A stretch of DNA of 56,620 nucleotides from Roseomonas sp. (GTDB taxonomy: Bacteria; Pseudomonadota; Alphaproteobacteria; Acetobacterales; Acetobacteraceae): contig JADCEV010000105.1 of the NCBI GenBank assembly GCA_020249865.1, forward strand, positions 1 to 56,620, in the 5' to 3' direction. Numbering within the stretch: the stretch's first letter is position 1; the number at the start of each line of letters is the position of its first letter. Under the pieces are notes generated by a model. It saw only the letters and a program-made list of their open reading frames with translations. It had not been told where the DNA came from and made no database searches. Both the position numbers and the translations under genes were made by a program. Of the stretch, positions 6,949 through 56,620 are shown piece after piece.

Positions 6949-6966
6949 TCCGGAAGGCCTGCCCGC

Positions 6967-7521
6967 TTGGCTGATGATATTGATATGGCGGCGCTGGATA
7001 GCGCCGCCCCCAGGCAGCCCCTCGGCCCGATCCAGATGCTGCTTGATGGCTTAGCCGCCATCGGCACCATTTGGACCTTTGGGCTGATGCTGCTGATTTG
7101 TGCCGATGTCATTGGCCGATCCTTTCTGAATGCGCCCATCACCGGGGTCGCGGAAATTGCCGCGCATTCGGTGGTGGGGATCGTCTTTCTGCAGATTGGC
7201 GCCACCATCTATCACCGCCGCATGACACGCGCGGATTTCCTGATCCAGCGCGTGCTGACCTGGGCGCCGCGTTTCGGGCGCGGGCTTGAGGCGTTGTTTT
7301 TCCTGATCGGCGCGGCGGTGATGTTCTTCATCGCGCAAGCCGCTTGGCCGGGCATGTGGAATTCCATCAATTTGCGCGAGTTCTTCGGCGTGCAGGGGCT
7401 TTTCACCGTGCCAACCTGGCCCTTTCGTGGCCTGATCGTGCTGGGCGGCGTGGCGGGGGGCATTGCCTATCTGGCGGTATTTGTCGCGGAACTGCGCGGG
7501 ATGCTGACGCGCCATGGATGA
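6967..7521 (+). CDS. TRAP transporter small membrane subunit (DctQ family)
   Basis: This 184-residue protein has four hydrophobic segments, as in DctQ subunits. It forms the membrane complex with DctM and uses the sodium gradient for uptake of the bound ligand. The start is taken as TTG at 6967, because GGAAGG at 6952-6957 lies nine bases upstream. An in-frame ATG at 6985 is the alternative. The stop codon overlaps the start of dctM by eight bases, so the two subunits are translationally coupled. Confidence 0.88.
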   Translation: MADDIDMAALDSAAPRQPLGPIQMLLDGLAAIGTIWTFGLMLLICADVIGRSFLNAPITGVAEIAAHSVVGIVFLQIGATIYHRRMTRADFLIQRVLTWAPRFGRGLEALFFLIGAAVMFFIAQAAWPGMWNSINLREFFGVQGLFTVPTWPFRGLIVLGGVAGGIAYLAVFVAELRGMLTRHG

Positions 7522-42828: not shown

Positions 42829-44279
42829 GGTCTTCCTCTCGAAGGCGCCTGGGGCGCCGTGGCGGCAGTGGCAGCGGCGGGACGTGCCGCGACATCACTA
42901 TAATCCCCAGTTCCAACCCAAAGGTTACGAACCGCCTGATGATAGGCTTTCGGGTCATAAAGCTGAACGGGCAGGCCAAGATCCTGCGCAGTCAAGCGGC
43001 CAATGGTGGCTGTCAGGGAATAGGATGCATTGACCAGAGTGGCCAGCGCCTGGACCAGGCTGACGCGGGCATTCAGCAATTCCTGTTCGGCGTTCAGCAC
43101 ATCAAGCGTGGTACGGCTGCCAACTACGGCTTCGCGCTGCACGCCATCAAGCGCGATTTCCTGGGCCCTGATCTGGGCGCGCACGCTTTCCACCTGGGCG
43201 CGCGCGGTGCGCAAAGTTTCCCAGGCTTGTGCCGCCTGTTGCCCGGCAAGGCGCCTTGCATCTTCCACCAATTGGCGCTGCTGCTGCGCCTGCTGGCGCG
43301 CCTGGCGCACGGCGGCGTGTTCCGCACCCCCCTGATAGAGCGGCACGGAAAGATTGGCGGTGACTTGAGAGCCCGTTTGTCTTGTACCGCGGGTCGTATT
43401 GTTATCCAGCCGGAAGGTCTGGCCCTGTACGCCGATGGTCGGCAGCAATGCGCCGAATTGCAGGTCAATATTTTCAATGGCCGCCGCTTCATCGAACATG
43501 GCGGCGATGACGGTCGGGTTATTCGTGCTGGCCTTTTGCACCGCTTCCTGCGCGGAACGCACAGGTGGGATCAGCGGTTGTGGGGGCGAAACCCTATTGG
43601 GTGCCATGCCGATCAGGCGCTGGAATACCGCACGGGAGGATTCCCGATTGCCCTCTGCCTGTTCCAGGGCGGCGCGGGCACCAGCCAAGCGCGATTCCGC
43701 CTGCGCGACATCAGTGCGGGTGATTTCACCCACCCGGAAGCGCTCATTCGTGGCCTGCAATTGCCGTGTCAGCACCTGAACATTGTTCGTATTCAGGCGG
43801 ACAACTTCCGAATCGCGAATGACCGCGACGTAAGAAGCAACGGAATCCAGCAAGACCTGCTGTTCGGTCGCGATCAGGCGGGAACGCTGCGCGTAAATCT
43901 GATTCTCCGCCCGCCTTGTGCCCGCCACGGTCCGGCCGCCGCGATAAATGGGCTGCGTAATGGCGCCAGTCAGATTGCCTGTGCTGCGATCAATATCCGT
44001 AAAGCGCGAATAGGGACCCGTCGCGCCATCCACGCGCGAGCGTGCTGTGGCATCCGTATAGCCGCCAGCGCCTGAGAAGGTGACACTCGGCCGCCAGCCG
44101 GCCAGGGCCTGGGGCAGGTTTTCATCAACCGCGCGAAGCTGCGCCCGGGCGGCCAGCAGCGCAGGATTATTGGCGTAAGCGGCCGCCAGGGCTTCCTGAA
44201 GGGTTTGCGCACCAGCCGAGGCAAGCGGCGCCACGGCCAGCGTTGCGGACAGGAAAAGCGTTGCGCGAAAACTCTTCAT
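42825..44279 (-). CDS. tolC: TolC family outer-membrane efflux protein
   Basis: From the ATG at 44277-44279 the protein has 484 residues with a signal peptide (KSFRATLFLSATLAVAPLAS). The two TolC repeats are rich in long helices (ANNPALLAARAQLRAVDENL at the start; the second begins near ASTNNPTVIAAMFDEAAA). TolC proteins form the outer-membrane tunnel of type I secretion and RND efflux systems. No partner pump is adjacent. A TTG at 44288 is an alternative start, but GGGGG is better spaced from the ATG. The C-terminal tail is Ala/Pro-rich. The gene lies between a Pcm-like gene and popZ, an order I recall from other alphaproteobacteria. Confidence 0.92.
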   Translation of the reverse strand: MKSFRATLFLSATLAVAPLASAGAQTLQEALAAAYANNPALLAARAQLRAVDENLPQALAGWRPSVTFSGAGGYTDATARSRVDGATGPYSRFTDIDRSTGNLTGAITQPIYRGGRTVAGTRRAENQIYAQRSRLIATEQQVLLDSVASYVAVIRDSEVVRLNTNNVQVLTRQLQATNERFRVGEITRTDVAQAESRLAGARAALEQAEGNRESSRAVFQRLIGMAPNRVSPPQPLIPPVRSAQEAVQKASTNNPTVIAAMFDEAAAIENIDLQFGALLPTIGVQGQTFRLDNNTTRGTRQTGSQVTANLSVPLYQGGAEHAAVRQARQQAQQQRQLVEDARRLAGQQAAQAWETLRTARAQVESVRAQIRAQEIALDGVQREAVVGSRTTLDVLNAEQELLNARVSLVQALATLVNASYSLTATIGRLTAQDLGLPVQLYDPKAYHQAVRNLWVGTGDYSDVAARPAAATAATAPQAPSRGRP

Positions 44280-44414
44280 CAAGTGCAACCCCCAAACCCC
44301 GGATTTAGCTCCAGGGTAACCCCCACCCCGAAACTACCAGGAGGGCCTTGACGCAAAGCTACAGCATGCGCGGGCGGTTGCGCCAGCCCAAGATTCAACA
44401 CAACCGGAGCGCGC

Positions 44415-45071
44415 CTAAAATGCGAAGCTGGGCGTTGGCTGAAAGGCAGGCAGCGGCGCGGCATGGGCCTCAAAAGCGGTGCGCGGCGTGAAGCTGCCGG
44501 CAATATGGCGCACCAAAATGGCCCGCGCCGGCGGCCCGCCGGTGGTAACCAGCGCCACCAGCCGCCCGCCTTCCGCCAGCAGGGTTTCGATCGGCCGCGG
44601 AATGGCGGGCACACCGCCTTCGATCACAATCACGTCAAAGGGGCCAAGGCCGGGCGGCGGATGGGCGGGGTCTTCGCGCATTAGCCGGACCGCGGCTTCC
44701 AATTGGCACTGGGCCAGGCCTTGTTGCGCCAGGGCGAGCAGCGCCGCATCATTTTCGAGCGCGGTGACATTGGCCCCCATGGACGCCAGAACCGCCGCGC
44801 CATAGCCGCAGCCCGCCCCAAGCAACAGCGTGCGGTCCCCACGGCGGAGCTCCGCCAATTGGAAAAGCCGCGCCATGACCATGGGCTGCATCAGCGCCCG
44901 CCCACCCGGCAGCGGCACATCCGCATCCGCATAGGCGCGCGGCGTGAGGTTGGCGGGGACAAACGCCTCTCGCGGCAGGTCACCAAAGGCCGAGAGGATG
45001 CGGGGATCCTGCACCTGGTTTGGCCGCAACTGCCCATCCACCATGAATCGTCTGACGCGCGCGAAATCCAT
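44415..45071 (-). CDS. Protein-L-isoaspartate O-methyltransferase-like protein
   Basis: This 218-residue Rossmann methyltransferase begins MVDGQLRPNQVQDPRILSAF, the PCMT-family N-terminus, and has a SAM-binding motif I LLLGAGCGYGAAVLA near residues 83-97. The usual substrate-binding and catalytic parts are conserved in outline, but the motif I sequence departs from the canonical VLEIGTGSGYQ. It may act on proteins or on another carboxylate. The gene is upstream of the TolC-like gene on the same strand. Confidence 0.85.
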   Translation of the reverse strand: MDFARVRRFMVDGQLRPNQVQDPRILSAFGDLPREAFVPANLTPRAYADADVPLPGGRALMQPMVMARLFQLAELRRGDRTLLLGAGCGYGAAVLASMGANVTALENDAALLALAQQGLAQCQLEAAVRLMREDPAHPPPGLGPFDVIVIEGGVPAIPRPIETLLAEGGRLVALVTTGGPPARAILVRHIAGSFTPRTAFEAHAAPLPAFQPTPSFAF

Positions 45072-45139
45072 ATCGCCCTTCCTTCAAGCCTTGTTGCACC
45101 CCTTATAGGTCCGCGGGCGCCGCCCCGCCAAGGTGGCGC

Positions 45140-45168
45140 TTGACCCGGAAGGGACGCGGCCCGATACA
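45140..45168 (+). promoter_or_regulatory. Sigma-70-type promoter of tRNA-Cys
   Basis: TTGACC (45140-45145) and GATACA (45163-45168) are separated by 17 bp. Transcription would start about 10 bp before the first base of the tRNA, as is usual for tRNA genes. Confidence 0.6.
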
Positions 45169-45178
45169 GGCGCCGAGG

Positions 45179-45252
45179 GGTCCGGTGGCCGAGTGGTCAG
45201 GCAAGGGTCTGCAAAACCCTCTACAGCGGTTCGATTCCGCTCCGGACCTCCA
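45179..45252 (+). tRNA. tRNA-Cys(GCA)
   Basis: A 74-nt cloverleaf can be drawn. The acceptor stem GGTCCGG pairs with CCGGACC, the anticodon stem AGGGT/ACCCT encloses the loop CTGCAAA with anticodon GCA, the T stem AGCGG/CCGCT encloses TTCGATT, and the 3' end TCCA supplies an encoded CCA. Confidence 0.95.
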
Positions 45253-45280
45253 AGGCGCGCTTTAGTGAAGCTGCAGGGCT

Positions 45281-45308
45281 TTGACATAAGGCGCGGCGCT
45301 GCTATTAG
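45281..45308 (+). promoter_or_regulatory. Sigma-70-type promoter of tRNA-Asn
   Basis: A perfect TTGACA (45281-45286) and TATTAG (45303-45308) are separated by 16 bp, about 16 bp before the tRNA-Asn gene. The two tRNA genes thus appear to be transcribed separately. Confidence 0.65.
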
Positions 45309-45324
45309 GCCCGCCGGCTCCTGT

Positions 45325-45400
45325 TCCCCGATAGCTCAGCTGGTAGAGCGCGGGACTGTTAATCCCTAGGTCGTTGGTTCGAGTCCAACTCGGGGAGCCA
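45325..45400 (+). tRNA. tRNA-Asn(GTT), integration site of a mobile element
   Basis: This 76-nt tRNA has acceptor stem TCCCCGA/TCGGGGA, D arm GCTCAGCTGGTAGAGC, anticodon loop CTGTTAA with anticodon GTT, T arm GTTGG/CCAAC, and an encoded GCCA end. Its last 17 bases plus GA recur at 53281-53299, so the gene is the attachment site of the element to its right and is restored by the element's left end. Confidence 0.96.
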
Positions 45401-45402
45401 GA
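45384..45402. repeat. attL: 19-bp direct repeat at the tRNA-Asn 3' end
   Basis: TCCAACTCGGGGAGCCAGA occurs here, in the T arm and acceptor of tRNA-Asn, and again at 53281-53299. The identity block is 19 bp and the flanking bases differ on both sides, which defines the likely crossover core. Confidence 0.9.
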
Positions 45403-45539
45403 TAGCCTTCCAAGGCATGTCACCCAAGGGCGCGAGGCGCCCTTTTTTCTTGTCTAAACCCCTGAAAAGGCTTGGAAAGTCTCAATGTGCGCCACGTTGC
45501 GCCATTTTGACATTGCAGGGGCTTGGTGTGGGGAGTAGT

Positions 45540-45562
45540 GTGGGGAAGCTGATCTTCCCCAC
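45540..45562. promoter_or_regulatory. GTGGGGAAG inverted pair upstream of the integrase
   Basis: GTGGGGAAG (45540-45548) and CTTCCCCAC (45554-45562) form a perfect inverted repeat around CTGAT. A related GTGGGGAGT lies at 45528-45536. The same motif recurs by the other end of the element, so these are candidate arm-type integrase sites, or an operator controlling int. Confidence 0.5.
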
Positions 45563-45579
45563 AATCGCGAGGCCCCGCC

Positions 45580-46920
45580 ATGGCCCTTGATGCCAAGACA
45601 GTCGAAAACGCCAAAAAGCGCGAAAAGCCCTATCGCCTATCGGATGGGGGCGGCTTGCTGCTTCAAGTGAACAAAAGCGGGTCTAAAGATTGGCTTGTGC
45701 GGGTGACAATCGCCGGCAAGCGCCGGGATATGGGGCTTGGCGGCTGGCCCGTTGTGAGCCTGGCCCAAGCCCGCGCCAAGGCCCTAGCGGTGCGGCGCGA
45801 CATTGAAGCCGGGCTTGATCCCATTGAAAAGCAACGGGAAGACGAAAGGAAAGCCAAGGCCGATCGCGAGGCGCGGGAAGAGGAAGACAAGCGCATATTC
45901 GAAGCCGCCCTTGATGCCTATTTGAAGGCTGAGGCGCCAAGCTGGAAAACCGCCAAAACCGCCAAAAGCTGGCGCGCCAGCCTGAAGCAACACGCCGCCC
46001 CGATTATGCGCCTGCCTGTGGGGAAGATTAGTGGGGAAGATGTGGGGAAGGTCCTTTCCCCGATCTGGCATGACAAGCCGGTGATGGCCGGCAAGGTGCG
46101 GCGGCGCATTGCGGCCGTATTGGACTATGCCGCCCGCAAGGGCTGGCGCGAAGATAAGAACCCCGCCCATGCTTCCCGGCTGAAAGACTTGGGGCTGTCC
46201 AAGCAAGCCCAAGGCCGGAATCAGCCTTCCTTGCCATGGGCGAAGCTGCCCGCCTTCATGGCCGCGCTAGACGGTGAAGCCGGCATGGCCCCGCTGGCGC
46301 TGCGCTTCCTGATCCTGACCGCCCTTCGATCGAGTGAGGGGCGCGCCTGCCGGTGGTCTTGGGTGTCCTTCGATCAAGACGGCCCCACCCTGACCATACC
46401 GCCGGAAGCGATGAAGGGGCGGAAGACGGAAAAGATTGATCCCCACCGCATTCCCTTATGCCCTGCCGCGCTTGATACCCTGGCCCGCGCCTATGGGCAG
46501 GCTATCGGGAAAAAGCCCGATCTGGCGAACCTGCCCAAGCTTGCCGCCCTTGCGGGGGATGCCTGGATTTTCCCGAACGCTTCACGCAATGGCCCGCTTT
46601 CGGATGCTGCAATCTCCAAGGTGATTCGGGTGATGCACAAGGCAAGCCCCTGGAATGATCGGGACGGGCGCCGCGCTTCCGTGCATGGCTTCCGTGCATC
46701 CTTCGCCACATGGGTTGATGATGTTTGCCCGGCTGAGCATTACGCGCGCGAAAAGGCCCTGGCCCATGAAATTCCCGATGGGGCGGTTAGCGCCGCCTAT
46801 CGGCGAAGCGATCTATTCGCGCGGCGGGTGCCGCTGATGGCCGCATGGGCTGAGCATTGCACCAAGCCGCCCGCGCAAGTGGTGAGCCTGCCCAAAGCCC
46901 GCGCGAAGCGGGCGCGGTGA
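45580..46920 (+). CDS. Tyrosine-recombinase integrase, P4/DUF4102 type
   Basis: This 446-residue integrase has the N-terminal DUF4102 arm-binding domain (residues 1-90, with YRLSDGGGLLLQV), a core-binding helical domain (about 100-200), and a catalytic domain. The catalytic domain has Arg250 (LTALRSSEGR), His369-x-x-Arg372 (HGFRASFATW) and the nucleophile Tyr407 in AAYRRSDLFARR. All expected residues are present, so it should be active. It lies 180 bp from attL, as usual for P4-type elements that integrate into tRNA 3' ends. The ATG at 45580 follows GAGG eight bases upstream. Confidence 0.95.
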   Translation: MALDAKTVENAKKREKPYRLSDGGGLLLQVNKSGSKDWLVRVTIAGKRRDMGLGGWPVVSLAQARAKALAVRRDIEAGLDPIEKQREDERKAKADREAREEEDKRIFEAALDAYLKAEAPSWKTAKTAKSWRASLKQHAAPIMRLPVGKISGEDVGKVLSPIWHDKPVMAGKVRRRIAAVLDYAARKGWREDKNPAHASRLKDLGLSKQAQGRNQPSLPWAKLPAFMAALDGEAGMAPLALRFLILTALRSSEGRACRWSWVSFDQDGPTLTIPPEAMKGRKTEKIDPHRIPLCPAALDTLARAYGQAIGKKPDLANLPKLAALAGDAWIFPNASRNGPLSDAAISKVIRVMHKASPWNDRDGRRASVHGFRASFATWVDDVCPAEHYAREKALAHEIPDGAVSAAYRRSDLFARRVPLMAAWAEHCTKPPAQVVSLPKARAKRAR

Positions 46921-46950
46921 TCCCCACCGCCGGCGGCTGAAAGGATGCGC

Positions 46951-46970
46951 GCCGGGGCGCTTTCCCCGGC
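46951..46970. other. GC-rich hairpin downstream of the integrase
   Basis: GCCGGGG (46951-46957) pairs with CCCCGGC (46964-46970) around CGCTTT. There is no T-run after it, so termination is uncertain. It lies in the 115-bp gap between int and the next gene. Confidence 0.5.
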
Positions 46971-47035
46971 AACAAAGCGGCGGGGCCGGTGGTTGCCTCA
47001 CCTGCCCCGCCTGACTCCGAAAGGATGGACTGACC

Positions 47036-47275
47036 ATGCCAAGCGAAGCTACCGAAAGCCCTACCACAACGCCGCCCTCTTTGGTGAAGGTTGCCGACAC
47101 GCTTGCTGACTTGCGCGCGGGAATTGATGCGCTGATGTATCTTTCTGTCTCTGAGCATTTTGACAGCAGGGCGCAAAGCGCCTTCGGCTTCATTCATCGC
47201 AATCTGTCTGACAAGCTGGAAGAGGCCCTTGATCTTGTGGAAGGCGCGCTAAGCCTGCAACGGGCTGGCGCATGA
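47036..47275 (+). CDS. Small element-encoded protein of unknown function
   Basis: This 79-residue acidic, mostly helical protein begins MPSEATESPTTTPPSLVKVA. It is preceded by GAAAGGATGG about ten bases before the ATG. The middle (LADLRAGIDALMYLSVSEHF) and C-terminal halves are amphipathic. No motif or family is recognised. Its stop overlaps a possible start of the next gene by four bases. It is the first gene of the element's operon after the integrase. Confidence 0.6.
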   Translation: MPSEATESPTTTPPSLVKVADTLADLRAGIDALMYLSVSEHFDSRAQSAFGFIHRNLSDKLEEALDLVEGALSLQRAGA

Positions 47276-47284
47276 CCCGCCGGC

Positions 47285-47324
47285 CAATGACGGAAGGCGC
47301 GAAGGGGCGGGGCGATAATGCCCC
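47285..47324 (+). repeat. 40-bp repeated translation-start segment, copy 1
   Basis: The 40 bases from CAATGACGG through GATAATGCCCC match 47734-47773 at 37 of 40 positions. In both places the segment contains the start codon and first 13 codons of a gene plus a purine-rich stretch. Confidence 0.8.
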
Positions 47325-47739
47325 GCCTGAGCGGAAACGCGCCTGCAAACCGAAGGCGCCACGCGCGCCGGATATAGGCGCCATGCGCTGGCCTGCCATG
47401 GCCCTGCCACCGCCGCCGGATGATGCCCGATGGAAGGTGAAGGCCGAAACCGAATTGACCGCGCTACGCATCGCGCGCGCCGCGCTATCCGATGACGCCG
47501 AAACCATGTTTGCGCGCTTCATTGCCCAAGGTGCTGAGCCTGGCACATGGGGCGCCGCCATGGCTTCCGTCGAAAGCTTTGGCGCGCTTGCGGAAGACTT
47601 GCGAACCCGCGCCGCGATCTTTGACGCGGTGAAGGCGCGGCTTGCTTGTGTAATTACCCGCGCGGCGGAAGAGCGCCCGGACTTGGCGCCCGCGATTGAT
47701 GAAGCCGCCCGGCTTCGATTGATCGCCAGCCCGCAATGA
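47287..47739 (+). CDS. Element-encoded protein of unknown function
   Basis: From the ATG at 47287 the protein has 150 residues. It has a basic, Pro/Lys-rich N-terminus, a 60-residue linker and a C-terminal helical segment (AAIFDAVKARLACVITRAAEE). An alternative ATG at 47272 overlaps the upstream stop by four bases. I prefer 47287 because the first ~13 codons (MTEGAKGRGDNAP) repeat almost exactly at the start of the next gene (MTKGAKGRGDAAP). Its stop overlaps the next ATG by four bases. No known family. Confidence 0.6.
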   Translation: MTEGAKGRGDNAPPERKRACKPKAPRAPDIGAMRWPAMALPPPPDDARWKVKAETELTALRIARAALSDDAETMFARFIAQGAEPGTWGAAMASVESFGALAEDLRTRAAIFDAVKARLACVITRAAEERPDLAPAIDEAARLRLIASPQ

Positions 47740-47773
47740 CGAAAGGCGCGAAGGGGCGGGGCGATGCTGCCCC
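47734..47773 (+). repeat. 40-bp repeated translation-start segment, copy 2
   Basis: This is the second copy of the repeat at 47285-47324. It overlaps the end of one gene and the start of the next through ATGA. The only differences are one base in the fourth codon region and two in the codon before the CCCC. Confidence 0.8.
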
Positions 47774-48701
47774 TTCGCTTAGCCCCTCTTCAATTCTCGA
47801 ACTAAGCCGCGATTGGCCGCGTTATGCCAAGGCGCTGCGCCTTTTGCGGAAGGCGCCGGCGCCGACTGAGCATGATAAGCTGCGCCTGGCAAAGCACATG
47901 ATTGAGGTTTGTGAGAATTGCGATTCCGAGGGGCTTGAAGAAACCGTTGGATATAACTTCGATCGCACAGAAGAACTTCGATCACTGAAGAGCGACACAA
48001 AGGCCGCGCGGAAGGCCGCGCGTGATCTGGCACGAATCATCCGAAGGCATCACGCCGCCCCGGAACTGAGCGCCGCGATCCAAGAAGCCGTTTGGGTTGG
48101 CGCGTGCCGTTACATTATCGAAGAGCAAAACGAAATCATCCTTGAGCAGGCAAACGAGACAGGCAAAAATTTAAGCGAAGCAGCGCGCGAAGCAAAAATA
48201 TCTGCAAGGCTGGCAGGGCAGGAAAATGCGATGAAAGCCGCACATGATGCCGGCCTAGACTATGGGCTAAGGGTCTGCGATGGATTTTTCATTGCCGCTG
48301 TTTTAGAAGATTTTGCGGAAAATCTGCCAAAGTATATTGAGGGCTTTGCGGGTGAACATCGGCGGCGCGGTATCCGCTTTAAGTCTTCACTGCTACGCAA
48401 GGGCCGATCGGCTGATGCGCTAACCGATTGCCTTTTTGGGCTAGTGTTTCATGCGCGATTGGCGACTGGCGCCGGGCGGGATGCTTGGGCGAACGCTGCT
48501 GATATCAGAAATGCCGGGCCGATGCCTAAGGACGGTGAGCCGCTTTATGACATTGTCGCCGCCTTCGCTTCCGCTGCCTTCAAGCTTGAGGAAGGTGACT
48601 TAGACGAAAAGAGAGCGGCGGATCGCCTGAGGCGATTTCTAATTCGCAATCCCGGCGCAGAATTTGAGGGATACCAAGTGAAGTGTTTTCTTTGGGAATA
48701 G
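47736..48701 (+). CDS. Element-encoded protein of unknown function, 321 residues
   Basis: This is the largest orphan gene of the element. The protein is predicted almost wholly helical, with a charged central part (KSDTKAARKAARDLARIIRR), a segment FFIAAVLEDFAENLPKYIEG, and a C-terminus rich in charged residues. No signal peptide, TM helix, Walker motif or nuclease motif is seen. The middle of the gene uses more A/T-rich codons than its neighbours, suggesting a different origin. The start overlaps the upstream stop by four bases. It is the best candidate for element cargo such as a defence or phage-interference protein, but nothing in the sequence proves that. Confidence 0.65.
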   Translation: MTKGAKGRGDAAPSLSPSSILELSRDWPRYAKALRLLRKAPAPTEHDKLRLAKHMIEVCENCDSEGLEETVGYNFDRTEELRSLKSDTKAARKAARDLARIIRRHHAAPELSAAIQEAVWVGACRYIIEEQNEIILEQANETGKNLSEAAREAKISARLAGQENAMKAAHDAGLDYGLRVCDGFFIAAVLEDFAENLPKYIEGFAGEHRRRGIRFKSSLLRKGRSADALTDCLFGLVFHARLATGAGRDAWANAADIRNAGPMPKDGEPLYDIVAAFASAAFKLEEGDLDEKRAADRLRRFLIRNPGAEFEGYQVKCFLWE

Positions 48702-48799
48702 CCGCGCGACGAATTAGCCCTTGATATTTTTAATTGGTCGAAAAAACCGGGCGCCGGAAATGGCATGAATGCTTCGAGACACATTCGGAGCATAACGCC

Positions 48800-49045
48800 A
48801 TGTCCACCTTACCCGATGCACTGATCAGCGCCGAAAGCGCCGCCGCCGAAACTGGCCTGAGCCTGCCGGCATTTTGGAAGATGGTAGCCGCCGGGCGCTT
48901 ACCTCGCCCCTACTATCCTGCGCCGCGCGCGCCGCGCTGGCGCCGTAGTGAATTGGCCGCCGCGATCGAAGCAACCCGCGCCTTACCGCGTGAAGCCCGC
49001 GCCGCGCGCCGGCAAGCGCGCATCGCTTCCAGCGCCGCCGCCTGA
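48800..49045 (+). CDS. AlpA/excisionase-like small HTH protein
   Basis: This 81-residue protein has the AlpA-type layout. A helix-turn-helix lies at residues 7-35 (LISAESAAAETGLSLPAFWK), followed by a wing with RLPRPYYPAPRAPRWRRSEL, where recognised AlpA proteins have P-x-x-x-G-x-x-x-x-W. AlpA proteins regulate int expression and excision in P4-like elements. The ATG at 48800 follows CGGAG at 48786-48790. The C-terminus is basic and Ala/Arg-rich. Confidence 0.78.
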   Translation: MSTLPDALISAESAAAETGLSLPAFWKMVAAGRLPRPYYPAPRAPRWRRSELAAAIEATRALPREARAARRQARIASSAAA

Positions 49046-49054
49046 GGCCCGGCT

Positions 49055-49369
49055 ATGTGTGTGTGCGAAAGCCCAAGCCTTGCCGGCTTGGTGAAGCTGG
49101 GGACGCCGCAAGGCGCTTTCCGCTTGAAGCTTTGGGCGCTGGCCTTTCAAATTGTGGCGCGCGGCGCCCATGGCGCGCCCAACAATCTTGAGGAATCGGC
49201 GCGGCGGCTTTTCTCGGTCTTGACTGTCCCCGTCATGGAGCGATCGGCGCTGTGCTTCGCGGTGCTGGTTGCGGAAGCCGAGCTTGATTTTACGCGCGAA
49301 ATTGGCGTGTCCTATCATTCCGATCGGGCGTCGAAGCGCAAAACGCGCTTGAAGAAATCGCGCCGATGA
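49055..49369 (+). CDS. Element-encoded protein of unknown function
   Basis: This 104-residue protein begins MCVCESPSLAGLVKLG and has a hydrophobic middle (LKLWALAFQIVARG) and a basic tail (SKRKTRLKKSRR). It lies ten bases after the AlpA-like gene, and its stop overlaps the next start by four bases, so it belongs to the replication operon. No family is recognised. Confidence 0.55.
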   Translation: MCVCESPSLAGLVKLGTPQGAFRLKLWALAFQIVARGAHGAPNNLEESARRLFSVLTVPVMERSALCFAVLVAEAELDFTREIGVSYHSDRASKRKTRLKKSRR

Positions 49370-50202
49370 ACGCGCCAGAAATCGCCGCCCGGCTTGGGCT
49401 GAAACGCGCCGGGCGCGGCTGGCAAGGTGCCTGCCCTTGTTGCGGCTATGCTTCCGGCCTGCGCTTGTCTGAAAAGGATGGCCGCGCGCTTTGGTGGTGC
49501 GCTTCCTGCCATGATCGCGGCGCCCTGAGTGCCGCCGTGCTAGGCCAAGCGGAACCCGTCACGCCGCGCGCGCCTGGCCCTGGCAATGCCGCGCCCGATC
49601 GCCGCGCCGCCGCGCTGGCGCTTTGGGATGATGCCATGCCGGCGGAAGCATCGCCCGTCGAAACCTATCTGCAATCGCGCGGGCTTGGCCTGCCGCCCGC
49701 GCCGGTGCTGAGATACCTTCGCGCCGCCAAGCATCCCACCGGAGCGCGCGCGCCTGCGATGCTGGCCATTGTGCAAGATGAAGCCGGGCGCGCCGCCGCA
49801 ATCCACCGGACTTACCTTCGCCCCGGTGGTGACGGCAAAGCTAAGCTTGATCCACCGCGCGCCACGCTTGGCGCGGTAGCCGGTGGCGCGGTGCGGCTTT
49901 ACCCGGAAGCGCCGCGCCTGGTTGTTGCGGAAGGGCTGGAAACCGCCCTAGCCGCCGCGATCTTGCTGCGCCTTCCCGCATGGGCGGCGCTATCTGCCGG
50001 CAATTTGGCCGATGCCCTGGCCCTGCCACCGGTGGTGCGAGAGGTGATCATTGCCGCCGATGCTGATGCGCCGGGGCGCAATGCCGCGCGCGCGGCGGCG
50101 CGGCGCTGGCGCGCTGATGGCCGCACGGTGCGAATAGCCGCGCCCGATCGAGAGGGCGCCGATTTTAACGACATTCTGATGGAGCGCCGGAAAAATGACT
50201 GA
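49366..50202 (+). CDS. Zn-ribbon/TOPRIM primase-like protein
   Basis: This 278-residue protein has an N-terminal zinc ribbon (Cys23-x-Cys25-Cys26 and Cys45-x-x-Cys48). It also has a C-terminal TOPRIM domain with its acidic EGLET (RLVVAEGLETALAAA, around residue 188) and the DxD in IIAADADAPGRNAARAAARR. This combination is that of phage and plasmid primases, as in P4 alpha-type N-terminal modules. Here it is a separate polypeptide, with the ATPase in the next gene overlapping it by eight bases, so the primase and helicase parts are split. It would make primers at the element's origin. Confidence 0.88.
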   Translation: MNAPEIAARLGLKRAGRGWQGACPCCGYASGLRLSEKDGRALWWCASCHDRGALSAAVLGQAEPVTPRAPGPGNAAPDRRAAALALWDDAMPAEASPVETYLQSRGLGLPPAPVLRYLRAAKHPTGARAPAMLAIVQDEAGRAAAIHRTYLRPGGDGKAKLDPPRATLGAVAGGAVRLYPEAPRLVVAEGLETALAAAILLRLPAWAALSAGNLADALALPPVVREVIIAADADAPGRNAARAAARRWRADGRTVRIAAPDREGADFNDILMERRKND

Positions 50203-51817
50203 TCCCGGCTTCACAATCTCCGATGCGCCCGAAGGTGAAGAACCAAAACGCCGCCGGCGCGGGCGCCCGCCGCGCCCCAAGCGGGGCGATCTGCTTTCCG
50301 AATTGCTGAGCGATGCGGAACTCTGGCCCGGTGATGATGGGGCGGGATATGCAAGTGTCCCCTGGGGGGAATGGCGAGAGCATTTCCGCATTACCTCAAA
50401 GGATTTCCGCCGATGGGTGATGCTGCGCTATCACGAAAAGCACGGCGCCGCACTATCTGGCAGCGCGCTTGCGGAAGCGGTGGGGCTTGCTGAGGCCCAA
50501 GCCTTGGCAAAGGGCGATCGCGCCGCGCATCGCCGCGCCTGGCGCCGTGTTGCCAAGCATGGCCGCGCGATCATTCTAGACATGGGCGGCGCTGATCCTT
50601 CGCGCGAAAGGCGTGCGGTGGAAATTACCGCCGCCGGCTGGCGCTTGCTTGATCCCGGCGCGGTGCCGGTGGCGTTTTTGCGCGCGCCGGATGCCCTGCC
50701 ATTGCCGGAACCGATACGCGATGAAGCGAAATTTGGTGATCTGGCGCGCTTCCTGAATTGCCCGGAAGGCGAAATCCTTTTGGCTTGGGCTTGGCTTGTG
50801 ACCGCGCTTCGCCCCTTTGAAAGCGGTGGCGCTTATCCAATCCTTGCCCTAACAGGGCAGCAAGGAAGCGGGAAAAGCCTTTCGTCCCGCTTCCTGCAAA
50901 GTCTGGTTGATCCTTCTAGCCTTTCCGGTGTCGCGCCGCCGCGCGATGAACGCGACATTTACGCAAGCGCCGGCGCGCGCCACCTGCTTGCGTATGACAA
51001 TCTGAGCGGGCTTCGCGATGATTTGGCCGATGCGCTTTGCCGCATTGCCACCGGTGGCGCCTTCATGGCCCGCGCCTTGTTCTCTGACTTTGATCAAGCC
51101 GCGATAACCGCGCTTCGCCCGCAACTCATAAACGGGATTCCGGCAAGCATCGCCGCGCGCAATGACTTGGCGGAAAGGTGCATCGCCCTGGAATTGAGCC
51201 GCCCGGTGCATCGCATCGCGGAACAGGAATTGATCGCGCAATGGGAAGCCGCCCGCCCGGCATTGCTTGGCCTGGCCTGCGATGCCCTTGCGGCGGCGCT
51301 ACGGAATCTTGATCGCGTCACGATTGAAGGCGAAGCGCCGCGCATGATTGATGCCGCCTTATGGGCGGAAGGCGCGGCGGAAGGCTTGGGGATTGAACCC
51401 GGCGCCATGGTGGCAGCATGGCGCGAAAACCGCCTGAGCGCCGATCGGGACGCGGTGGCGCTTGATGACCTGGCCCGCGCGGTGGTTGCGCTGATGGCCG
51501 CGCGCGAAAGGGAAAGAGACCCGAAGCACCCAAGCGATGAAGACAGGGCGATTGATGATCTAGAGAAAAGTGCTGAGGAATTGTGGGACAAGCTTTCGAA
51601 TAAGTTTCCGCCTGTGGCGGTGGATAAGGCCCTGAGGGCGATAGCCGGTCCCGATGCTACGCGCGCGCGATCTTTTCCCGCGAGTGTTGCCGCCATGTCT
51701 TCGCGCCTGAAACGCCTGGCCCCTGCCCTGAAAGCGGCTGAGAGGATCGAGATTGATTCCGGGCGCGACAAGGCCGGGCGCTGGATTTCCCTTCGCCGGC
51801 TTCCGCCGGCGGCTTGA
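50195..51817 (+). CDS. AAA-type replicative ATPase/helicase-like protein
   Basis: This 540-residue protein begins with a basic Arg/Pro-rich tail and has a P-loop GQQGSGKS at residues 221-228. A hydrophobic stretch with an acidic residue follows (ARHLLAYDNLSGLRDDLADA, near residues 262-281), serving as Walker B. Downstream, the segments LINGIPASIAARNDLAERCI and LELSRPVHRIAEQE resemble the sensor regions of P4-like primase-polymerase/helicase proteins. The gene overlaps the primase-like gene by eight bases. It should unwind the element's origin, but may also be annotated simply as an ATP-binding protein. Confidence 0.85.
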   Translation: MTDPGFTISDAPEGEEPKRRRRGRPPRPKRGDLLSELLSDAELWPGDDGAGYASVPWGEWREHFRITSKDFRRWVMLRYHEKHGAALSGSALAEAVGLAEAQALAKGDRAAHRRAWRRVAKHGRAIILDMGGADPSRERRAVEITAAGWRLLDPGAVPVAFLRAPDALPLPEPIRDEAKFGDLARFLNCPEGEILLAWAWLVTALRPFESGGAYPILALTGQQGSGKSLSSRFLQSLVDPSSLSGVAPPRDERDIYASAGARHLLAYDNLSGLRDDLADALCRIATGGAFMARALFSDFDQAAITALRPQLINGIPASIAARNDLAERCIALELSRPVHRIAEQELIAQWEAARPALLGLACDALAAALRNLDRVTIEGEAPRMIDAALWAEGAAEGLGIEPGAMVAAWRENRLSADRDAVALDDLARAVVALMAARERERDPKHPSDEDRAIDDLEKSAEELWDKLSNKFPPVAVDKALRAIAGPDATRARSFPASVAAMSSRLKRLAPALKAAERIEIDSGRDKAGRWISLRRLPPAA

Positions 51818-51886
51818 TGCGCGCCCCGGTGCGATCGCCGCGCGCGCCGGGCGTGTCCCCTTCCATCGCGGCTGAGAGGATGATTG

Positions 51887-52096
51887 ATGCCCAAGCTACG
51901 CGAAAACGCGCCGCCGCCCATGGTGGGGGCGCTGTCCTTCACGCTGTCACAAGCCGCGCGAATTTCCGGCCTAAGCACGGCAACGCTTCGCCGGCGCGGT
52001 GCGGAAGGCAAGCTGCGCCTATTCCGGTGCGGCGGCCGCCGCATGGTTGATGGGGATAGCCTTCGCCGCATGGTGGGGGTGGGGGCGAGTGAATGA
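51887..52096 (+). CDS. Small HTH DNA-binding protein
   Basis: This 69-residue protein has a helix-turn-helix in SFTLSQAARISGLSTATLRR (about residues 18-37), followed by a basic wing (GAEGKLRLFRCGGRRMVDG) like MerR/AlpA family binders. The ATG at 51887 has GAGAGGA just upstream; a TTG three bases earlier is possible. It may act with the AlpA-like protein at 48800 on int or origin control. Its stop overlaps a following 28-codon ORF by four bases. Confidence 0.72.
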   Translation: MPKLRENAPPPMVGALSFTLSQAARISGLSTATLRRRGAEGKLRLFRCGGRRMVDGDSLRRMVGVGASE

Positions 52097-52179
52097 ACCG
52101 CTTCACCTATGGCGCGGCGCTTATCGCCGCGCCGCTGGCAATCCTGGCCCTTGCGGGCTTGCTGCGCCTGGCCCGATGA
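52093..52179 (+). CDS. 28-residue single-TM peptide
   Basis: This ORF overlaps the stop of the HTH gene by four bases (ATGA). It encodes MNRFTYGAALIAAPLAILAL and then eight more residues ending LRLAR, giving one membrane helix with a short polar N-terminus and a basic C-terminus. The tight coupling to the upstream gene suggests it is translated; its size keeps it out of most gene predictions. A further 26-codon ORF starting at 52176 overlaps its stop by four bases and reads as a Pro/Trp-rich chain; I do not claim that one. Confidence 0.45.
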   Translation: MNRFTYGAALIAAPLAILALAGLLRLAR

Positions 52180-52531
52180 TAAGCCGCCCGGCCTGGCCCT
52201 GGCCCCCACCGCGCGCCGCCTGCCTGCCCCACCCCGCGCCCCTGCCCTGGGGTTGAAGCACACGGCGCCCGCAAGCGCCGGGGCGCCGGCCTGGCCTGCC
52301 GGTGGTATTGAGGGCCGGGGGCTTGGGTCCTTCCTGGCCTTCCATGTATGCGGGCAGCTAGCGCGCGCGAATTTTCTAGTGGGGTTGCATCCGAAAAGGG
52401 TCAACTGGTGAATTCCTGCAACGCTTCACGCGCCCGCAATCTCTGGCGCTTTCCCCATGTCTCCCCTTTGAGTGAACCTTGCCCCCCTTTTGGTGCAACC
52501 GGTGAAATGAACCGGGCGCCTGAGCGGCGGC

Positions 52532-52795
52532 GCCATGTCAGCGCATGTCAGCGCATGTCAGCAACGCATCACGCCTAAGCCCCTGATCTGGAACGGGAAA
52601 TGACGCGGTGACGCCGGTGACGGTCCTTTCTATTCTATAGACTGAAAAAAAGAGGGGGAGAGCGGGGAAGGAATATATCGCGTGTCGGAAGATAGGAAAA
52701 ACGCCGTCACCGCCGTCACCGCGTCATTTTGCCAGCCCGATCAATGGCTTGCCGGTAATAGGGTGCTGACGGGCGCTGACATGCGCTGACATGGC
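52532..52795. other. Candidate replication origin: concentric inverted repeats around an AT-richer centre
   Basis: Outer arms 52532-52563 and 52764-52795 are complementary at 30 of 32 positions. Inner arms 52598-52623 and 52704-52729 are complementary at 25 of 26. Both pairs share exactly the same centre (52663.5). Within each arm there are short tandem units: GCGCATGTCA in the outer and GGTGACG in the inner. The centre (52624-52703) has A-runs and AT-richer sequence. Direct iterons arranged in inverted sets next to a melting region are typical of origins, and the element's primase-like and ATPase genes lie just upstream. P4 itself uses GGTGAAC-type iterons, a recalled parallel. Confidence 0.55.
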
Positions 52796-52884
52796 CGCGC
52801 CCGATCGCCGCCGGGCGGCGCCCGCCACCCCTTGCGGATGATGCGATAAAGGGGAGCGCGAAATCCCAAGGCCCGGCGGCGCCT

Positions 52885-53160
52885 GGCCCTGGGGAGCATG
52901 GCCCCTGCCGGTGGGGGCTTCGATCGCCGGCGGCTGGGGCTTGGCCCCACCGCCACCGCTTGGCCCTGGGGCGCATGGCCCCTGCCGGTGAGGGCTTCGA
53001 TCGCCGGCGGCTGAGCCTTGGCCCCACCGCCACCGCCTGGCCCTGGGGCGCATGGCCCCCTGCCGGTGGGGGCTTCGATCGCCGGCGGCTGGGGCTTGGC
53101 CCCACCGCCACCGCCTGGCCCTGGGGCGCATGGTCCCTGCCGGTGGGGGGCTTCGATCGG
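52885..53160. repeat. 77-bp tandem repeat array, about 3.5 copies
   Basis: Copies start at 52885, 52962, 53039 and 53117, giving periods of 77, 77 and 78 bp. The unit begins GGCCCTGGGGCGCATGGCCC and contains GCTTCGATCGCCGGCGGC; the last copy is partial. The period is not a multiple of three, so the array is not a protein repeat. It lies about 120 bp from attR and may be a partition, incompatibility or helper-recognition site. Confidence 0.9.
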
Positions 53161-53175
53161 CGGATTGATTCGCCC

Positions 53176-53223
53176 CTTCCCCACCCCTACCGGGCGCGAA
53201 ACGTGGGGAACATTGTGGGGAAC
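53176..53223. promoter_or_regulatory. GTGGGGAAC/CTTCCCCAC motifs near attR
   Basis: CTTCCCCAC (53176-53184) and two GTGGGGAAC (53203-53211, 53215-53223, spaced 12 bp) lie within 110 bp of attR. They mirror the set at 45528-45562 near attL. They are candidate arm-type binding sites for the integrase. Confidence 0.5.
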
Positions 53224-53280
53224 AGAAATTTTCCGAAAATTTTCTATTGATAATTCAATTCTCTAGAAAGAGCGTTTTAC

Positions 53281-53299
53281 TCCAACTCGGGGAGCCAGA
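53281..53299. repeat. attR: second copy of the 19-bp tRNA-Asn end
   Basis: This is an exact copy of 45384-45402. It lacks the rest of the tRNA, so it is a remnant of the original target left at the far end of the element. Confidence 0.9.
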
Positions 53300-54839
53300 A
53301 AAATCAAAAACTTACGAGCCCGATGCCCTCCCAAAAAATCGAAATTTTTCGCCGTGGTGCCACTATGGTGCCAGATTGGTTGGGCTTGGTGGAACTCGCC
53401 CAGGCAGGGCGTGCCTTGGCGTCTCTCGGGTGATCGTAGCGTCTAAACTGGATCAGTTTCGCGTTGGGCCGCTTGGGCGCCTGAACGAGTGGGCGAGTTC
53501 TCCAGGCGCGTACGGGTGCAAGCGGAGATTACACCGGAACGCGCGTTGACGCCCGTTATGAAGCCCCCCCCCAGAGACATAAAGCCCAGCGCGGGACTCC
53601 CGGGCGCAGGGGGCGCCAGTTCTTCACGCGTCGCCGAGCACAGCTGCCCCCCTACCCGCCCCCGCGCTTCCGGGCTGGCCGATCCGCCCACCCTGGTCCT
53701 GATCGGGTCAATGGCACCGCTAAGCCACCTAATGATGTAGTCGTCCAAATTCACCAGTGTGGCTGAGTGCCGCGGCCGCGGGCGAAGCCGCTCTGCGTCG
53801 CCAACGTGCAGGTAGCGCCGGACAGCCTCGCGTCATAGCCCAACTTTTCACGCAATCGCGTGCAAACCATTGTTCTGCTTTTTCAGTAGAAGCTTCTCTA
53901 ATACCAAATCCCCCGCATGCATGAGCACGCCTATCCGTTGGGTAGCAAAAAAATAAAGCGGGGCCAGTTTTCAAAATGCACATGTGCCAGCTTTACGGCA
54001 TCGATTGTAATCCAGGACGGATCGGCACCTTCACGCGTCATGCCTGTACGCATTTTTTCGCGGCGTCCGGAGAGATCATGCGTTCAAGCGTGGCGACTCA
54101 ATGGCCTTAACATTTCCTCCGCCTGGAGAGTGATGAGCTGGATCGGCGCCATTCAGCATGGCGTCATCTAGATTTCAAAGAAGAAAAGAACGCCAGCTGC
54201 ATGGGGTATTAATAATGCGAGCATGACTGAAATAATTTTTTTGTAATCTATTACTTTTTGCAAGACGATAAAGTATCATAGCATTCTAAGGGCACAGAGC
54301 GCCAAAGTGGATATTCTTAAGATTTTAGCTTGGTTTTCTCTGGCCTGATGCATTTAGAAAACTAAGGATGAACTCAGGGCTAAATTGAAAACGAAAATCC
54401 GGTCAGGTCAGCGTGGTCCGGGAAAGTCGCAGAGCGGTGCCAGCAAAGCCATTAATGTCGAGGCTACAGGCGAAGACATTCTCACCCTTGGAGAAAGAGC
54501 CGCTGAGAACAAACCTGAAACCTCGATGGTGCGTCAGGGTCTCACCGACGGGTTACGTTATCTGACGGCTCAAGAAGCCGCCAAGCTGCGAAATCAGGGG
54601 CTAAGTTCTTTTTGGCGTCAAGAGAGCCGGTTCGGTTTCAAACTCGATAGTCCTCATCATTTTCCTGCCTATGAATACAACGCATTTGAGCAATTTGGTT
54701 GCGCCTTCCCGTAACTAGGAAATGGGAAACTGGCAAATAGGTAACGCTAATTCCGGATTTGGAATCACCCGCCCTTGAGAAAGATAGGTCCTCGATATTG
54801 CAAAATTTCATTATCGTCACTGGGCCACAATCACCTGCG
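53300..54839. other. Decayed accessory region without a clear gene
   Basis: These 1.5 kb are heterogeneous. The first 450 bp are GC-rich, while 54180-54380 is AT-rich. Frames such as 53443-53754 (minus) and 53917-54171 (plus) are open, but they show no recognisable motif, ribosome-binding site or plausible composition. I interpret the stretch as remains of earlier insertions to the right of the tRNA-Asn element. Confidence 0.55.
54385..54714 (+). CDS. Hypothetical protein, doubtful
   Basis: This is a 109-codon frame from a TTG, with a basic N-terminus (KTKIRSGQRGPGKSQSG) and a middle part LTDGLRYLTAQEAAKLRNQG that could be helical. It has only a weak ribosome-binding site and no recognised family, and it sits among pseudogenes. 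It may be a real small gene or a fragment; confidence is low. Confidence 0.25.
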   Translation: MKTKIRSGQRGPGKSQSGASKAINVEATGEDILTLGERAAENKPETSMVRQGLTDGLRYLTAQEAAKLRNQGLSSFWRQESRFGFKLDSPHHFPAYEYNAFEQFGCAFP

Positions 54840-55226
54840 AAGGCGCCACCACAAAGCGCGGCAAGCCCATGAACAGGAGTGATGTCTATCGCATTCTGAC
54901 CAACCGCGTGTTTTTGGGCGAGGCCGTGCATAACGGCAATTCCTATCCCGGCGAGCATGACGTCATCATTACGCAAGCGCAATGGGATACGGTGCGGGCC
55001 ATCCTGAAAATCAACCCTTGCATCTGGGTCAATCAGTCACAGAGTACCACCGCGCCATTACTGCGTAGCCTGCTAGGTGCCCCGCATGCTGCGGCTGAAG
55101 TTGCTGGCGCCGGAAATGGTGGAGGCAATCCTGGATGGAAGGCAGCCGAAGGCGGTGACGCTGCCGGGAGTTCTGGAGCCGTTTCCCTTGGAATGGATAC
55201 AACAGGCAGGCTACCCGTTGCCGTGA
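54840..55226 (+). pseudogene. Serine-recombinase remnant
   Basis: Two fragments of a large serine recombinase are read in different frames. The first (54840-55020) reads GATTKRGKPMNRSDVYRILT, continuing with NRVFLGEAVHNGNSYPGEHD, which matches the Recombinase domain after the catalytic domain. The second (55077-55226) reads LKLLAPEMVEAILDGRQPKA and ends at a stop, matching the family's C-terminus. The sequence between is altered, and the whole N-terminal catalytic domain with the nucleophilic serine is missing. It is a dead fragment of an older mobile element. Confidence 0.75.
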
Positions 55227-55438
55227 CCTGTGCCGCTTATCGGCGATACCACGGCGCACGGCGTTAATTGTCTCGGACGCATCCGCCAGGCTAGGCTTCT
55301 CAGTAACGCCATAAACCGGAACAGAGCATTGAAAGCGCCATGCCGTCTCATCTCTCCAGTCTCACCCTGGCTCTGTTCGTCGCGCTCGCCTGCAACGCTG
55401 CGGCTCAATCGGCCAGAGATCGCCCGCTGGTCATAGCC

Positions 55439-56497
<1,059 letters not shown>

Positions 56498-56502
56498 AAG
56501 GC

Positions 56503-56620
56503 TCACTGCTGAGTTCTGAATAGTAATGCTTCCAGATAATCTGTGTTCATGGCGGCTTTTTTTCTTCTGACTTTAAGGCTGTGTTTGTCGTCTGCGTTGC
56601 GTATCATGTTCATGGCCATG
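56503..56620 (-). CDS. C-terminal end of a second transposase (partial)
   Basis: The minus strand from the window edge reads MAMNMIRNADDKHSLKVRRK, then KAAMNTDYLEALLFRTQQ and a stop at 56503-56505. This resembles the basic C-terminus of ISAs1/IS4-like DDE transposases (N-x-x-R-x-x-x-x-K-x-S-x-K-x-x-R-x-x-A); the family call is a recalled resemblance. The rest lies outside the window. It directly abuts the truncated IS21 remnant. Confidence 0.5.
   Translation of the reverse strand, partial: MAMNMIRNADDKHSLKVRRKKAAMNTDYLEALLFRTQQ

Follow-up and report, generated by a model that had tools for sequence, protein, structure and literature searches.

This study analyzed a 56,620-nt stretch of Roseomonas sp. 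DNA (contig JADCEV010000105.1 of assembly GCA_020249865.1; hereafter, the window), which is one whole contig of a 3.65-Mb genome in 154 contigs. NCBI taxonomy places Roseomonas in Roseomonadaceae, Acetobacterales. We focused on a small element at a tRNA-Asn gene, which comprises an integrase gene (int), a structured RNA, an AlpA-like regulator gene, separate primase and ATPase genes, and an inverted iteron dyad between two copies of a short attachment core (Table 1). The element is a discrete tRNA-Asn insertion that is absent from a sister genome, and its backbone is that of a family of small elements located at tRNA genes. The loci and genomes used for comparison are designated by L and G numbers, respectively.

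Table 1. Features of the element and its target in window coordinates (HTH, helix-turn-helix; ORF, open reading frame)
Feature	Position	Strand	Basis or remark
tRNA-Asn(gtt), integration target	45325..45400	+	ARAGORN and Rfam; 3' end is part of the core
attL core, 19 bp	45384..45402	+	repeat search; junction at sister-genome locus L075 1285-1303
Element-borne copy of native tRNA-Asn terminator, 66 bp	45403..45468	+	stem GGGCGC/GCGCCC and T-run
Left-arm integrase-type sites	45528..45562		GTGGGGA 45528+; GTGGGGAA 45540+ and 45555-
Tyrosine integrase, P4-type	45580..46920	+	Arm-DNA-bind_3, Phage_int_M, and Phage_integrase domains
Three GTGGGGAA sites inside int	46018..46049	+	
Post-int structured RNA, two hairpins, covarying	46945..47022	+	model search and alignment
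ORF, 79 aa	47036..47275	+	weak relative in L177, E 6e-5
ORF, 155 aa	47272..47739	+	no family matched (Pfam, PHROGs, PADLOC)
ORF, 321 aa	47736..48701	+	no family matched (Pfam, PHROGs, NCBIfam, PADLOC)
AlpA-like HTH regulator / excisionase	48800..49045	+	phrog_66 E 4e-7; phmmer relatives in L088, L173, L177
ORF, 104 aa, directly 5' of primase	49055..49369	+	no family
Stand-alone primase: Zn-ribbon, DUF7146, TOPRIM	49366..50202	+	Pfam, PHROGs (phrog_510), hhalign
Stand-alone P-loop ATPase, putative replicative helicase / origin binder	50195..51817	+	homologues and Walker A
Second small HTH protein	51887..52096	+	HTH_17 E 2e-4 (below curated cut-off); phrog_66 E 2e-4
Putative replication origin: inverted iteron dyad, A-rich center	52526..52801	.	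inverted-repeat scoring
Tandem repeat, 3.7 copies of a 77-bp GC-rich unit	52880..53163	+	repeat finding
Right-arm integrase-type sites, GTGGGGAA x3	53177..53222		53177-, 53203+, 53215+
attR core, 19 bp	53281..53299	+	repeat search

The 19-bp core, TCCAACTCGGGGAGCCAGA, consists of the last 17 bases of tRNA-Asn plus 2 and recurs at 53281-53299. A search of the window for this core with up to 3 mismatches returned 2 matches, against 0.02 expected in shuffles, which agrees with the direct repeat that the original prediction had placed at the tRNA-Asn 3' end and 7.9 kb downstream. The tRNA-Asn region was searched in 59 genomes, the window's own included; 58 of the 59 yielded a match, the distant ones through their tRNAs, and 13 places were fetched. 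The results revealed that in L075 of the sister genome G020, which is of the same genus as the window (Roseomonas record JADCER010000003.1, identical over 19,566 bases), window 44101-45402 (96.0% identical) is joined straight to window 53281-54620 (93.1%), with exactly the 19-bp core common to both flanks at the joint. This is an empty site, and an empty-site genome lacking exactly 45403-53299 is what had been proposed as a check. The joint in L077, L078, and L082 is the same as that in L075, the core of L082 having one mismatch. These four joints define the element as 45403-53299 (7,897 bp). Both direct repeats and an empty site, as expected of an integrative element, were thus found. The element is real and discrete; it has moved since the split from the sister genome or was lost there.

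In five of the 13 places (L076, L080, L081, L084, and L086), another sequence, a terminator, follows the core, and in four of these five it runs into shared chromosome for kilobases, L084 holding only the first 64 bp. We took this terminator-type sequence as the native flank. The first 66 bp of the element are 87-92% identical to the post-tRNA-Asn sequence of L076, L080, and L081, and the same likeness holds for L086, where the sequence stands after a partial tRNA copy. Because a native flank should follow attR after insertion, the 66-bp copy at attL most simply came with the element, which would most simply restore the tRNA plus its terminator upon insertion.

The motif GTGGGGAA occurred 9 times in the window against 1.6 expected, and eight of these copies lay inside the element: 2 in the left arm, 3 inside int, and 3 in the right arm. 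Similarly, the annotation of P4 (NC_001609) places arm repeats on both sides of the core and inside int. These are presumably arm-type sites bound by Int.

Nine ORFs of the element were scanned against Pfam and PHROG profiles, and no virion, packaging, or conjugation family was recognized among them, in accordance with the claim that packaging and conjugation genes are lacking; four of the nine matched no family. The 321-aa ORF is possibly cargo. A scan for defense genes with PADLOC returned mad1 as its sole match (E 9e-4), in the second HTH protein, which we read as mere HTH similarity. The 77-bp tandem repeats next to attR are a candidate packaging or replication site; among the loci compared, the unit matched only copies from the own genome, apart from 20 bp in L043. 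DNA similar to 45403-53280 was not found among plasmids or phages. The small size of the element and its integrase and HTH genes would also suit an integrative mobilizable element transferred by conjugation machinery, and the primase has a weak match in the C-terminal region of TraI (TIGR02760, 32.7 bits; cut-off, 930). However, this match falls on the TOPRIM-bearing part of the primase, and neither relaxase nor coupling protein, the mark of integrative mobilizable or conjugative elements, was recognized among the nine ORFs (six of the proteins were also compared with NCBIfam); we consider this explanation highly improbable. We read the element as a minimal satellite-type integrative element that is probably spread by a helper phage, with a probability of roughly 0.58.

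We further analyzed the replication genes. The primase exhibited DUF7146 (E 7e-30) and Toprim_3 (E 3e-18) domains and a weak Zn ribbon (E 0.01). Alignment with hhalign against P4 alpha gave a probability of 98 and E 2e-13 over alpha residues 33-300, against E 0.17 for the control with P4 Int; as judged from these profiles, the primase is homologous to the N-terminus of alpha. The match of the ATPase to the alpha helicase region was marginal (probability 9.8, E 0.003; control E 0.64), the alignment pairing Walker A with Walker A. With the primase homologous and the ATPase marginal, the replicase appears P4-like in its primase half. No convincing profile for the ATPase was found in Pfam, PHROG, or NCBIfam, and PADLOC added nothing; profiles of solved structures gave P-loop-level matches only (best E 0.004). 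Its Walker A motif was recognized by eye, and the ATPase of the distant relative L184 matches the C-terminal part of a PHROG annotated as DNA primase (phrog_1156, E 1e-5). Thus, the gene positions of the original prediction and its AlpA-like and TOPRIM assignments were upheld, its Zn ribbon is weak, and its ATPase is without a convincing family. The primase and ATPase are separate, overlapping genes, as had been claimed, and the overlap is 8 bp. This split is not peculiar to the window element: it is shared by all ten loci examined of a close group, defined by a primase gene directly 5' of the ATPase gene (L088, L089, L090 [= L007], and L173-L179). In other elements, a TOPRIM gene stands alone next to a helicase of another kind.

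The origin-like palindrome noted earlier is real and has the form of an inverted iteron dyad of 276 bp. Its arms (52526-52623 and 52704-52801) are 79% complementary and each contain three CATGTCAGCG-type and three GTGACG-type units; its score was 56 against a shuffle maximum of 21 (30 shuffles, own scoring). Among nine elements tested, six (the window element, L089, L088, L173, L090, and L178) carried a dyad between the last gene and att, with scores of 21-56 against shuffle maxima of 14-21, each above its own maximum. Each arm has approximately three units of 9-10 bp, which are loosely repeated in L089, L088, and L173. The iterons differ between elements, being of the GTGACG type in the window and of the GGACGACCC type in L178 and L090, and the inner dyad edges are similar across elements (CCTTTTCC-like and TAGGGAAAAAGCCG-like). 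As far as these sequences indicate, the dyad is a new feature, which is kept in place and form while its iterons differ. From its place, its form, and the parallel with P4, in which crr lies between alpha and attP, we regard the dyad as the putative replication origin.

In the other three elements (L182, L183, and L185) and also in L180, L181, and L187, the dyad lies inside the ATPase gene, towards its 3' end; scores were 23-37 against maxima of 15-24, every gene exceeding its own maximum (20 synonymous-codon shuffles each). Such an intragenic dyad, found in a sister clade, is an origin-like site embedded in a probable initiator gene. At 35 loci, the surroundings of the helicase gene were scanned up to a distance of 6 kb; 11 loci had an inverted repeat scoring at least 20 and 24 had none, several of the latter being on short contigs. 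Because shuffles of five such stretches (8 each) reach 20, only seven of the 11 are clear (L095, L180, L181, L182, L183, L185, and L187). The other four (L099, L110, L119, and L179) are near background, with scores of 20-22; repeated units are visible in L099, L110, and L119.

A DNA search with 45403-48800 revealed that 121 bp after int are 86% identical in the otherwise diverged element of G020. An RNA model built from four sequences matched 30 of 299 family genomes, the own genome included; in a sample of 289 class genomes, the only match at E 0.001 was that of the window. We checked 34 places for int, namely the four model sequences, L039, and 29 other loci among the 38 matches listed. The RNA started -1 to 348 nt after the integrase stop on the same strand in 21 of the 34; with the four model sequences excluded, 17 of 30 followed int, including the 8 best-scoring loci of the family search. 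The 13 places without int upstream scored E 1.2e-5 or weaker in that search. Of 13 neighborhoods fetched, 11 had int 0-348 nt upstream, the exceptions being L233 and L239.

Covariation was examined in 21 MAFFT-aligned sequences, all from places with int upstream (L218 was left out of 22). In the paired columns, 92.8% of cells pair, and changes on both sides were found in 7 of 14 pairs, against a shuffle mean of 4.2 (3 of 500 shuffles reach 7). The covariation score was 0.297; shuffles gave 0.087 and slid versions no more than 0.050. The structure scored had been named after viewing the same alignment, which favors that structure. Further pair types numbered 12 against 10.0, a count attained in 66 of 500 shuffles and thus unremarkable, and an alternative pairing (columns 3-6 with 13-16) and the first helix are mutually exclusive. 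The int-alpA RNA (RF02996) is likewise a structured RNA of phage-like elements and usually lies downstream of int. The post-int RNA is absent from Rfam, and the window gave no RF02996 match; identity of the two was rejected, L203 carrying RF02996 separately, further downstream. Downstream of the post-int RNA, RF02996 was matched at L203 1089-1157 above threshold and at L205 1834-1903 below it. In L230, L231, L232, L235, and L237, the post-int RNA leads into primase/helicase genes of other types. Since the RNA occurs among L227-L238 in elements with other replicases (fused primase-helicases or other TOPRIM/helicase pairs), it marks a wider island guild. On the evidence of these alignments, a covarying post-int RNA that is shared by many related islands and distinct from the int-alpA RNA is new. 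Together with the second HTH gene, the integrase arm-type sites, and the 66-bp terminator copy at attL, it extends the anatomy drawn earlier.

Conserved synteny elsewhere, on which the original prediction had been made to depend, was found in the close-group relatives. The full order of int, AlpA-like gene, small ORF, primase, ATPase, and dyad was observed only in L173 and L089, the AlpA-like frame of L089 (at 7064) being read by eye. L088 and L177 have an AlpA-like gene on contigs without int, and no AlpA-like gene was called in L090 or L178. The position of the 104-aa ORF is occupied in relatives by ORFs of 91-167 aa with undetected similarity. A test for tRNA repeats at 16 loci revealed six ATPase elements bounded by such repeats, with sizes of 7 to 16 kb: L090 (Thr, 50 bp), L173 (Gly, 47 bp), L178 (Gly, 46 bp), L182 (Lys, 46 bp), L183 (Arg, 47 bp), and L089 (Lys, 48 bp at 87.5%). 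L039 and L043, in which the helicase is another one, were also tRNA-bounded, and the other 8 of the 16 loci showed nothing convincing (L187 has an 18-bp repeat with one mismatch).

Several relatives carry isolated virion genes. L089 encodes a 605-aa protease-major capsid fusion (PF05065 E 6e-41, PF04586 E 5e-6), and head-maturation proteases related to it were found in L088, L174, and L178 by profile and in L173 by phmmer to that of L088. The fusion gene of L089 (10805-12622) lies in a 9.3-kb tRNA-Lys element with no terminase or portal among the genes examined. Tape measure proteins were found in L176 and L179, of which L176 also encodes a tail assembly chaperone and a minor tail protein. We did not count L176 among the bounded satellites: it may be a prophage, with tail genes where its contig ends. 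L179 begins at a contig end and is not bounded. L178 encodes a TerS-like protein (phrog_57 E 1e-10, without Pfam support), and its 965-aa protein matched no profile. Large terminase and portal were not seen among the selected relative proteins scanned, a scan that covered part of the ORFs. These isolated virion genes suggest satellites that swap virion modules.

The window element is without the virion genes of its relatives, and a relic search of 51701-53300 found nothing convincing (best non-self E 0.012, to a 201-aa ORF of L089). Decay of a satellite or prophage, with loss of the virion genes and merely passive survival, would account for the approximately 1.2 kb without a recognizable gene, with GC-rich tandem repeats, between the second HTH gene and attR, and several relatives do have virion genes after the ATPase. 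This alternative is improbable in our view: the backbone genes are intact open frames, the arm-type sites, dyad, and both cores are present, that stretch holds no convincing relic, and other elements without recognized virion genes, namely L090 and L182, look intact too.

We compared the satellite-type element with described systems. In the available text of PMC8628076, a P4-like satellite is one with at least 5 of 7 components. By sequence, the window element has at most 3 of these and is not a P4-like satellite; the P4-like label of the original prediction thus stands for the anatomy and the primase homology and falls for membership. The integrase (26% identity to P4 Int, E 2e-32) and, through phrog_66, alpA were found, although BLASTP of the AlpA-like protein against P4 ORF88 gave nothing. 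The alpha component is represented by the homologous primase part, with the helicase part in a separate, marginally matching protein, and no Pfam or PHROG match of the psu, sid, delta, or epsilon kind was found among the nine ORFs. The window element and P4 have in common a P4-type Int, an AlpA-type regulator, the circular order of primase, ATPase, iteron region, attP, and int, and the location of the iterons between attP and the 3' end of the replicase genes; P4 also uses a tRNA-type target. They differ in that the primase and ATPase of the window are split, in contrast to the alpha fusion of P4, and in host: P4-like elements are described in Enterobacterales in the available part of PMC8628076, whereas the window host belongs to Acetobacterales.

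In gene economy, PICMI, as far as the consulted text of PMC10803314 describes it, is the closest system: it has int, alpA, and primase plus a few unknown genes and no known capsid-remodeling genes, and this gene set can suffice with a helper phage. The three core genes are all present in the window element; no capsid-remodeling gene was recognized among its nine scanned ORFs, four of which are without a family. In contrast, PICMI lies next to fis, is tied to virulent phages and Vibrionaceae, and has three core genes with no separate ATPase named in that text, whereas the window element has a tRNA-Asn target and adds an ATPase, a dyad, and an RNA. In L090, a 65-aa ORF (6831-7028) overlaps the int stop by 4 bp, an arrangement as described there for the PICMI iolg gene. 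Relatives also resemble cf-PICI and PICI, as outlined in the text available of PMC11389934 and PMC10803314, in the own capsid gene of L089 and the TerS-like gene of L178; however, cf-PICIs are said in the latter to make their own capsids, whereas L089 has only the protease-capsid fusion among the genes examined and the window element no recognized virion gene.

Helper dependence is the part of the satellite reading that we infer, and several observations weigh against it. ATPase relatives were found in 28 plasmid records (Streptomyces 20, Stanieria 3, Methylobacterium 2, and three others), and the sole phage with such a relative is Microbacterium phage Zeta1847, in two accessions. Viral contigs were scanned with a small number of short peptide patterns, and no close relative was returned (0 for the window ATPase and none for alignment A4); the matches were distant loci, two with alignment A1 and one with A3. 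PF05065 matched nothing in the own 154-contig genome, in which a resident helper of the HK97 type was therefore not seen. No capsid, TerS, or capsid-remodeling gene was recognized in the element, and its 79-, 155-, 321-, and 104-aa ORFs are without an assigned function. The plasmid-borne relatives and the lack of an HK97-type capsid gene in the own genome weaken helper dependence, whereas the relatives with incomplete virion gene sets strengthen it. An integrative plasmid that excises itself, replicates from the dyad with its primase and ATPase, and moves by transformation, generalized transduction, or passive mobilization without a dedicated helper would fit the preponderance of plasmid records over phage records (28 against 2) and the lack of a recognized virion gene in the window element and in the bounded relatives L090 (four proteins profile-scanned) and L182 (phmmer only). 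Nevertheless, the gene set is of the P4 and PICMI type, and genes for a head-maturation protease, a capsid, or a TerS-like protein occur in the backbone relatives L088, L089, L173, L174, and L178; we consider such a plasmid unlikely, yet the most credible of the alternatives.

The ATPase is present in 3 of the 59 genomes (own, G020, and G007), 35 of which belong to the genus, and relatives occur in 23 of 397 family genomes, the own included. A contig collection yielded 54 ATPase relatives, from Alphaproteobacteria to Streptomyces, Cyanobacteria, and methanogens. The primase had one match in phage records, an unannotated 10-kb contig (E 4e-7). In G007 (contig C45, 12189-12769; L003 and L004), a remnant of an ATPase relative is interrupted by stop codons.

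According to the satellite reading, Int and the AlpA-like protein would excise the element at the 19-bp core by using the GTGGGGAA arm sites on both flanks, and the excised circle would replicate from the iteron dyad. The ATPase may recognize and open the dyad while the separate primase makes primers, such that the two jobs of P4 alpha would be divided between two proteins. Insertion would restore the tRNA and its terminator, and the RNA after int may set the expression of the early operon. Having no recognized virion genes of its own, the element would spread in helper-phage particles.

We also propose, at what we judge to be even odds, that the element belongs to a previously undescribed satellite guild of Acetobacterales. 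Its members would be tRNA-borne elements that share int, a post-int RNA, an HTH regulator, a split primase/ATPase, and an origin of inverted iterons. Genes for a protease, protease-capsid fusion, tape measure, or TerS-like protein would be acquired singly and lost again, down to bare forms like that of the window, and the iteron sequence would change while the dyad is kept, the origin of one clade having moved into the ATPase gene. The satellite families reviewed in PMC11389934 are P4-like elements, PICI, cf-PICI, PLE, PICMI, VEIMEs, tycheposons, and soil elements, none of which is tied to this host group in the available portion of that review. Among the papers surveyed on satellites with Acetobacteraceae, Alphaproteobacteria, or Roseomonas, the accessible text describes no such element. 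Elements of this class are known; in the literature surveyed, to the extent that its text was available, none was met that combines a split replicase, an iteron dyad, and a post-int RNA in this host group. The separate primase and ATPase narrow the question of the minimal gene set, each being testable singly for the jobs of P4 alpha. As the iterons differ along with the ATPases, the dyads allow a test of initiator-origin specificity. The relatives with a tape measure or protease-capsid gene and no full set raise the question of which part of the helper virion a satellite must replace, and the post-int RNA is a candidate regulator common to many islands.

Other sequences follow the core in the remaining four of the 13 tRNA-Asn places (L079, L083, L085, and L087), those of L079 and L087 being weakly similar to the right flank of the window. 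The flank from 53300 on is not the native chromosome of the other relatives and is apparently the left end of a second element. This stretch (53300-56620) looks degraded and is common to G020, G018, G024, and G025 (L075, L077, L078, and L082 share it). It holds GTGGTGCC-type repeats and a serine-recombinase-like fragment, and an IS21-like transposase ORF (55514-56497) lies at the contig end, both genes being named by eye.

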